Positions 21,479 to 24,241 of a DNA stretch of 47,555 nucleotides are shown one piece after another. The stretch is from a bacterium. Its GTDB lineage: Bacteria > Actinomycetota > Acidimicrobiia > Acidimicrobiales > Bin134. The position numbers and the translations under genes are program-made. Each line of letters begins with the position of its first letter. The first letter of the stretch is position 1. The DNA lies in assembly GCA_026709815.1 (NCBI GenBank), contig JAPOSH010000044.1, forward strand, positions 1 to 47,555, given 5' to 3'. The notes beneath the pieces were generated by a model that worked only from the letters and a program-made list of their open reading frames with translations, was not told where the DNA came from and did no database searches.

Positions 21479-22648
21479 GTGAGCATCGAGCCGTTCGAGA
21501 TCTGCGTCCCCCGAGCCGACCTAGACGACCTACACCAGCGTTTGTCCATGACCCGTTGGCCCGACACCGTGAGGCCGGGTTGGGCCGACGGCGCTTCGGT
21601 GGCTTACATGCAAGATCTGTGCCGACACTGGGCCGACGGCTACGACTGGCGGGCCCGGGAGACCTACCTCAACGCCTTCCCCCAGTTCACCGCCACTGCG
21701 GCCGGCGAGCGGGTGCACTTCTACCATGTGCGCTCCCCAGCGACCGATGCGCTGCCCATGGTGATGATCCACGGGTACATGGGCTCGGTGGTGGAGTTCC
21801 GCGAGATGATGGGACCGCTGTCCGATCCGGCGGCTCACGGCGGCGATCCGGCTGACGCCTTCCACCTCGTGGTCCCGTCGCTGCCCGGCTACGGATTCTC
21901 CGGCCCGACCGCCAACCCCGGCGTAGACGTGCACCGCTGCGCCGAGGCCATCGCCGGGGTCATGGAGCAGTTGGGCTACGAGCGCTACATCGTGCAGGGG
22001 GGCGACTGGGGGGCGCTGGTCACCCGGCGCATGGCGGAGGCCTTCGGCGACCGGCTCATCGCCGCCCACTTCAACATGCTCTTCGCCCAGCCCACGGCGG
22101 AGGAGGCCGCCGAGCAGGCTGAGATGATGGAAGGGGTGACCGAGGCCGAACAGGCGGCCATGGCCCGCTCGCTGGAGGTGATCGCCGACGGCACCGGCTA
22201 CATGGCCATGCTCTCCACCAAGCCCCAAACCCTGGCCGTGGCCCACAACGACTCCCCCGCCGGTCTAGCGGCGTGGTTCATGGAGAAATACCAGCACTGG
22301 TGCGACCTGGAGAACGGCGATCTCGAGAGCGTGTTCACCAAGGACCAGCTACTCGACAACGTGATGCTGTACTGGATCACCGCCACCGCGGCGTCATCGG
22401 GGCGGCTGTATCTGGAGTCGGCCCGCACCGGCACGTCGGCGCTGGACTCCTGGGCCGGTCGGGTGGAGGTGCCCACCGGCCATGCCGTCTACCCTCGGGA
22501 GCTGCTGCAAACCCCGCGGGTGTGGGCCGAGCGCCGCTACAACATCGTTCACTGGGCCGTGCAGCCCAAAGGCGGCCACTTCGCCCCCTTCGAGCAGCCC
22601 GAGCTGTTCACCGACGACCTGCGAGCCTTCGGGCGCCTGTTCCGCTGA
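21479..22648 (+). CDS. Epoxide hydrolase (EHN domain, alpha/beta hydrolase)
   Basis: IEPFEICVPRADLDDLHQRLSMTRWPDTV (EHN), GGDWGALVTRRMA nucleophile region, KGGHFAPFEQPELFTDDLRAF. Confidence 0.92.
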   Translation: MSIEPFEICVPRADLDDLHQRLSMTRWPDTVRPGWADGASVAYMQDLCRHWADGYDWRARETYLNAFPQFTATAAGERVHFYHVRSPATDALPMVMIHGYMGSVVEFREMMGPLSDPAAHGGDPADAFHLVVPSLPGYGFSGPTANPGVDVHRCAEAIAGVMEQLGYERYIVQGGDWGALVTRRMAEAFGDRLIAAHFNMLFAQPTAEEAAEQAEMMEGVTEAEQAAMARSLEVIADGTGYMAMLSTKPQTLAVAHNDSPAGLAAWFMEKYQHWCDLENGDLESVFTKDQLLDNVMLYWITATAASSGRLYLESARTGTSALDSWAGRVEVPTGHAVYPRELLQTPRVWAERRYNIVHWAVQPKGGHFAPFEQPELFTDDLRAFGRLFR

Positions 22649-22651
22649 GGG

Positions 22652-23215
22652 CTACGCGAACCGGGCGGAGCGCATAGCCAAGATGTCGTCCTCGCCGCGG
22701 CCCTCGGTGGCCTCGAGCGCCTCTTCGGGGCCTTTCATGCGCAGCGGGCAGGAAACCGACACGTCCATCACCTGATTGACGCGGCCGAAGGCGATCCAGC
22801 AGCCGATGGACAGGGTCATGTCCATCATCAGCTCGTCGCCGAAGTGCCCGACCATGCGGTCCATGAACGCCTGGTCGATGGCCAGATGGTCGGTGGCGTA
22901 CTTCTCGCAGTACTCCAAGGCATCCCGCTCGGCCTCGCTGTAGCCGTGGTATTGGTCTCGATTGCCGACGTTGAGGTAGTCGTCCTCGCTCAGATCATGT
23001 TGCGCCAACGACGCAACCCGGGTGTCCAGTCAAACCACGCAGTGGTTGATCTGGGCGATCCTCATCCTCAGCAGCTCCCGCAGCCGCACCGAGAGCTTGC
23101 TCTTGTTGTACACCGCCGCGCTGAATGCCGACGCCGGAGCGGTCAGCTCCGGGCACAGCATCCACAGCCGATGCAGCTCCTCGGCGGGGCCATCGGGGAT
23201 CTTGATTCGCGCCAT
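22652..23215 (-). CDS. Candidate selenoprotein: carboxymuconolactone decarboxylase/AhpD-like protein read through an in-frame TGA (Sec) at 23030-23032
   Basis: Track ORFs 23030..23215 and 22652..23008 share one frame separated by a single TGA: ...LRELLRMRIAQINHCVV[TGA]LDTRVASLAQHDLSEDDYLNV...YSEAERDALEYCEKYATDHLAIDQAFMDRMVGHFGDELMMDMTLSIGCWIAFGRVNQVMDV. The TGA falls at the second Cys position of the family's CxxC. Confidence 0.7.
22999..23017 (-). promoter_or_regulatory. SECIS-like hairpin 12 nt downstream of the in-frame TGA
   Basis: Coding strand TGA-CTGGACACCCGG-GTTGCGT-CGTTG-GCGCAAC: 6 Watson-Crick pairs plus one U-G, 5-nt loop with G at position 2 followed by U. Confidence 0.5.
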
Positions 23216-23353
23216 GCCTCCTCCTCGGCCGGAATGCCAAGACTGTACAGTCCCAGACGCCTCCCAGCTCGCACAGTCGCTTCACGAGCAGGCGTTCGGG
23301 CCCGTTGCCGCGACTTGCGGCTGTGCTGCTCGCCGCGGCCTCGGCCTTTTCCG

Positions 23354-24241
23354 TCAGCCCAGATCAGCGTGATTCTTCGGACGGGTGGTGGCGATGGTGC
23401 CGTAGAACACACCGACGAGCACGATGACCGCGCCAACGGCGGCGACAGGGCGGGGGAACTCGCTGAAGAACGCCGCGGCCCAAACTGTGCCCGCCACCGT
23501 CTCGATGGGTGAGAACAAGGCCACATCGGCCACCGGGGCGAAGCGAGGCGCGTTGGACAGTGCCAGTCGGCCGAAAGGGTTGAACACCAGCCCCATGGCG
23601 GCGATGGACAGATAGGCCCGGGCGTCCAACGAAAGCGGCGACGCCCAGTACATCAGCGCCGCCACGGTCAGCACTCCGCCGATGGACAACCCCACCAGCC
23701 GGCTCATGTCGGGATACCGGCGCCACATGGTCAGGCTCACCGAGAAGCCCACAATGGCCACCACGCCCAGCAGGTCGCCCGAGAGGGTGGGCTCGCCCAC
23801 CGAGCTGAACACGATGGCCACGATGCCCGCCAGGGTGATGGCGATGGCAATGGCGATGGCGCGGCTTATGCGCTCCTTCAGCCATATCCAGGCGCTCACC
23901 GCGGACAGCAGCGGCACCGCCGACACGATGGCCACCACATTGGCCACCCGGGTCTCGGTGACGGCGATCACGAAGCAGAGCTGGCTGCCTCCGCTGAGCG
24001 CCCCAATGACCAAGTGCTGCCACCGGTGGCTGCGGAACGCCTCCAGCGGCCCGCAGCCGTCCACCCGATGGCTCAGGCCGGTGTAGAGGGGTACCGAGCA
24101 GCACGCGACCCAGAAGGAGACATCCACGGCATCGGCCTCCGAGAGCCGGATCCAAAGCGAATCGGTGGAAACCGCCAGCATCCCCACTCCGGCGAGCAAC
24201 CAGCCCAGCCGCCGTTGATCATTGGCCCGGGCGGCATCCAT
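23354..24241 (-). CDS. EamA/DMT-family transporter
   Basis: About ten TM segments; internal duplicated EamA-like halves (VVAIVSAVPLLSAVSAWIWLKERISR ... VALFSPIETVAGTVWAAAFFSEFPRP). Confidence 0.85.
   Translation of the reverse strand: MDAARANDQRRLGWLLAGVGMLAVSTDSLWIRLSEADAVDVSFWVACCSVPLYTGLSHRVDGCGPLEAFRSHRWQHLVIGALSGGSQLCFVIAVTETRVANVVAIVSAVPLLSAVSAWIWLKERISRAIAIAIAITLAGIVAIVFSSVGEPTLSGDLLGVVAIVGFSVSLTMWRRYPDMSRLVGLSIGGVLTVAALMYWASPLSLDARAYLSIAAMGLVFNPFGRLALSNAPRFAPVADVALFSPIETVAGTVWAAAFFSEFPRPVAAVGAVIVLVGVFYGTIATTRPKNHADLG

Follow-up and report, generated by a model that had tools for sequence, protein, structure and literature searches.

A CMD-domain gene with an in-frame UGA codon

The window analysed here is a 47,555-nucleotide contig from an Acidimicrobiia draft genome. 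On its minus strand, positions 22652-23215 form a reading frame that begins with ATG and ends with TAG, and in which a TGA at codon 62 (23032-23030) is the sole internal stop. The features of the locus are as follows.

22652..23215, minus strand: CMD-domain candidate selenoprotein gene, 187 residues, CVVU motif (direct reading, PF02627 and homologs)
23217..23226, minus strand: Shine-Dalgarno-like GAGGAGGAGG ahead of the ATG (read directly)
23039..23041, minus strand: Cys59, first residue of the CxxU pair and putative resolving partner (invariant in 96 homologous sequences)
23030..23032, minus strand: UGA codon 62, second position of CxxU, predicted to be read as selenocysteine (Sec) (TGA at 34 and TGC/TGT at 36 loci in the homologous column)
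22999..23017, minus strand: bSECIS-like hairpin with an 8-bp stem, arms 23017-23010 and 23006-22999, loop GUU 23009-23007 (position and covariation)

The coordinates and translation given for this gene in the initial annotation are correct, except that its 188 codons include the terminal stop, leaving a protein of 187 residues. The GAGGAGGAGG stretch upstream of the ATG is purine-rich. When the joined sequence was compared with the Pfam CMD model (PF02627), as had been proposed, the match ran across the TGA (residues 22-102) and scored 35.4 bits (cut-off 23), which places the protein in the family. This match, together with the presence of TGA at the same codon in 15 other genomes of the genus, indicates that the open frame is not due to chance. 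An epoxide hydrolase gene with an EHN domain (21479-22648) converges on the CMD gene with a gap of 3 bp, and this arrangement is kept across the genus. Viral contigs searched with the locus gave no matches, a plasmid search gave distant matches only (identity below 60%), and the Rfam matches to the locus were chance matches only.

The host encodes the selenocysteine machinery

We searched the host draft genome (2.8 Mb, 88.9% complete, 244 contigs) for selA, selB, selC and selD, the genes that the initial annotation had singled out for checking, and all four are present. The tRNA-Sec gene scored 67.5 bits against a cut-off of 47 and was called tRNA-SeC(tca) by ARAGORN. Because the tRNA-Sec model gave weak matches to other tRNAs in every control genome, only matches above the cut-off were counted. 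SelB (258 bits) and SelA (392 bits) both scored above their cut-offs and are encoded on the same contig as the tRNA-Sec gene. SelD (358 bits; locus L060, contig C235:258-1202) has an in-frame TGA of its own within the motif SHGAGU, at the position where SelD proteins have Sec or Cys; host SelD is thus a selenoprotein candidate too.

Three other genomes of the genus (G003, G009 and G016) have tRNA-Sec and selA, yet no copy of the CMD gene was detected in them. This indicates that the CMD gene is not universal in the genus, and the machinery in these three genomes is presumably sustained by other selenoproteins.

Sec and Cys exchange at codon 62 among homologs

The CMD gene or a relative was found in 59 of 198 related genomes. 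At the column of codon 62, the 70 homologous loci in the order have TGA (34), TGC (31) or TGT (5), and neither TAA nor TAG occurs; the motif pattern used for this column allowed C or U only, and it rejected none of the loci. The homologs therefore have Cys or Sec at this position and nothing else, which bears out the proposal that the TGA lies where the second Cys is expected. Every same-genus copy that spans the site has the TGA (16 of 16, the host and 15 further genomes; G004 has only a fragment, cut off ahead of the site, and is outside this count). The codon is thus retained in close relatives, and the gene shows no decay. All 27 loci read in a phylum-wide search are Cys forms, and Sec forms of this lineage were observed only within the window's own order. 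A tree of 87 proteins requires five changes between Sec and Cys, at least four of which are forced by well-supported branches.

The Sec form is associated with selA, which was found in 26 of 28 Sec-form genomes versus 15 of 30 Cys-only genomes (Fisher p = 4e-4), the genomes being phylogenetically non-independent. Outside the genus, 11 of 12 Sec-form genomes have selA (p = 0.015). There are two exceptions, Sec-form genomes in which selA was not matched: tRNA-Sec is present in G013, and in G187, which is 83% complete, neither selA nor a tRNA-Sec above the cut-off was detected.

Some genomes have more than one copy of the gene. Two distinct Sec-form CMD paralogs (L020 and L067) occur in G001, and G096, G131, G162, G062 and G097 also have two CMD paralogs each.

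A covarying bSECIS-like hairpin follows the UGA codon

The initial annotation had suggested a search for a SECIS element, and 3' of the UGA there is indeed a hairpin that covaries and conforms to the bSECIS model. It starts 12 nt past the UGA, with its loop 20 nt past it. Among 21 distinct Sec forms, 7.2 of the 8 stem positions pair (90% of cells paired). In the Cys forms (n = 36), 2.9 of 8 positions pair, which is the level at shifted positions, and the hairpin is absent. Two-sided changes that keep the pairing occur in six of the eight pairs. In the alignment, which consists of coding sequence of related genes, covariation was 0.43, compared with 0.19 after shuffling (0 of 500 shuffles reached the observed value) and 0.04-0.11 for slid partners. 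RNAalifold recovered six of the hairpin pairs unprompted. The loop opens with an invariant G, and its second base is G or U; the loop G and the 20-nt spacing from the UGA match the published bSECIS model (PMC13188914).

The hairpin region folds at -15.0 kcal/mol over 45 nt. Folding 58 nt of the window sequence alone favoured a different structure, which was not better than shuffles (z -0.39), and mean folding energy of single sequences, relative to synonymous-codon shuffles, did not distinguish the Sec forms from the Cys forms. The backing for the hairpin is its position and covariation, not energy. It is poorly kept or altered in three Sec forms (L078, L086 and L087). Each of these three loci directly follows a gene for an ABC transporter ATPase.

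Selection and alternative explanations of the UGA

Pairwise dN/dS between the gene and its relatives is 0.03-0.30 upstream of the UGA and 0.18-0.45 downstream of it, where the hairpin codons are constrained as RNA too, which may lower dS somewhat. The downstream values show that the part after the UGA is translated and constrained. Both halves of the gene are under purifying selection, in line with the earlier impression that each was intact and constrained.

We considered whether the TGA might be a nonsense mutation that inactivated what was once a CxxC gene, which would take only a single base change from the TGC or TGT found at 36 homologous loci. The TGA is, however, common to 16 genomes of the genus and to other families, its flanks are intact, dN/dS downstream of it is below 1, and there are no frameshifts or extra stops, so that a pseudogene is highly improbable. 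The window comes from a fragmented draft of 244 contigs, in which a one-base sequencing or assembly error could be imagined, but independent assemblies, the single-contig genomes G006 and G014 among them, have TGA at this codon too. This contradicts an error of that kind, a possibility named in the initial annotation, and we consider its probability negligible. A frame that remains open past the UGA would also be seen if the codon were read as another amino acid, either by genome-wide reassignment or by leaky readthrough with a Trp or Cys tRNA. Such a reading is very unlikely, as the neighbouring EamA gene (23354-23356) and several homologs end in TGA as a normal stop; moreover, it would not explain why the codon is linked with Cys, selA and the hairpin.

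The apparently broken CMD gene is almost certainly intact, and its interpretation as a selenoprotein gene in the initial annotation is strongly supported. The gene structure, host machinery, Sec/Cys exchange, covarying hairpin and purifying selection were all obtained directly. From these we infer, with near certainty, that the product is a selenoprotein belonging to the CMD (PF02627) superfamily, with UGA-62 decoded as Sec.

Relationship to AhpD and to known selenoproteins

On the conserved CMD helical hairpin the protein has E47 ... C59xxU62 ... R66. In Mycobacterium tuberculosis AhpD the residues corresponding to E47, C59 and U62 are Glu118, Cys130 and Cys133. The proton-relay His (His137/His55) has been called invariant in the AhpD-like family (PMC3141380). 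M. tuberculosis AhpD and PA0269 share with E47, C59 and U62 the spacing of Glu and CxxC on a helical hairpin, but the protein described here differs from both in having Sec for the second Cys and Arg for the catalytic His. The AhpD proton-relay His is replaced by Arg66 in every one of the 96 homologous sequences (a few are duplicates). The protein therefore lacks one element, the His relay, of the combination of Glu, CxxC (or CxxU) and His that marks AhpD and AhpD-like peroxidases. The AhpD-core (TIGR00778) and peroxidase-related (TIGR01926) models scored under their cut-offs (20.6 versus 27.8 and 19.1 versus 81.8, respectively). The description of the gene as CMD/AhpD-like thus holds for the CMD domain, matched by PF02627, and fails for AhpD in the strict sense, given the Arg for His and the scores of the AhpD models.

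The best NCBIfam match, aligned over the same region, is NF053654 (YciW-related (seleno)protein), at 39.7 bits and far under its equivalog cut-off of 310; other Sec forms score up to 68 bits. NF041047 (GSU3128) scored 13.1 bits against an equivalog cut-off of 110, and NF041238 (AhpD-related (seleno)protein; equivalog cut-off 175 bits) gave no match. The debrominase Bmp8 (6ohi) is a relative in the PDB that is detectable by sequence, with a weak match (E 0.0011). An AlphaFold model built from a 10-sequence alignment had a mean pLDDT of 45.8, a quality too low for use in fold searches.

CMD-like CxxU (PF02627) and AhpD-like 2 (pfam02627, CxxU) selenoproteins are present in selenoproteome surveys (PMC13188914, PMC2398784), as the initial annotation had noted. 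By their published descriptions they have the same Pfam domain, the same Sec position in CxxU and Cys homologs. CMD/AhpD-like CxxU selenoproteins are therefore already known, and the host gene is a new lineage of that kind. In the literature collection searched, no paper dealt with the selenoproteins of Acidimicrobiia.

Proposed mechanism and function

SelB and Sec-tRNA(Sec), aided by the downstream hairpin, would decode UGA-62 as Sec, and the product would carry a C59-V-V-U62 redox pair on the CMD helical hairpin. The AhpD-type CxxC proteins serve as the analogy for the chemistry: the selenolate of U62 would probably attack an oxidised substrate, Cys59 would then resolve the intermediate as a selenenylsulfide, and a cellular thiol system would reduce the latter. 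These catalytic roles, like the nature of the substrate, are predictions. The most likely role of the protein is selenol/thiol redox: the spacing of Glu, Cys and Sec is matched, but with Arg66 for His and the AhpD models under cut-off, thiol/selenol redox is likely and peroxidase activity unproven.

Two more specific functions can be weighed. The protein might be an AhpD-like peroxidase in the true sense, or a peroxiredoxin adaptor, in which Sec replaces the second Cys. Its Glu47, Cys59 and position 62 are spaced as are Glu118, Cys130 and Cys133 of M. tuberculosis AhpD, and it has sequence matches to the solved AhpD-like structures 2gmy, 2ijc and 2o4d; the replacement of the relay His throughout the 96 homologous sequences and the low scores of the AhpD-core and peroxidase-related models count against this function, which we regard as possible but doubtful. 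A redox or dehalogenating enzyme in a catabolic pathway (terpenoid, steroid, aromatic or halogenated), and not in general antioxidant defence, is an equally tentative proposal. It draws on the convergent epoxide hydrolase gene that adjoins across the genus, on the genes for P450, Rieske oxygenase, SDR, CoA-transferase, CoA-ligase or nitroreductase near other Sec forms, and on the weak match to Bmp8. The neighbours vary, however, few are on the same strand and near enough for an operon, and the Bmp8 match is marginal, so the genes beside the Sec forms give a weak hint of catabolic roles. It is conceivable, though we think it improbable, that the Acidimicrobiia, including sponge-associated members, hold a Sec/Cys-switching CMD lineage with the motif E...CxxU...R that acts in degrading natural products that are oxygenated or halogenated, and not in peroxide reduction.

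Selenol/thiol redox remains the reading that we favour for this protein, and since its active site departs from that of AhpD, its chemistry cannot be taken from AhpD. The CMD gene is split into two ORFs by automatic annotation and missed by every curated NCBIfam selenoprotein model, which implies that the selenoproteome of such bacteria is under-counted. The Sec/Cys exchanges on the tree, at least four in number, offer a natural series for asking what an enzyme gains from Sec.
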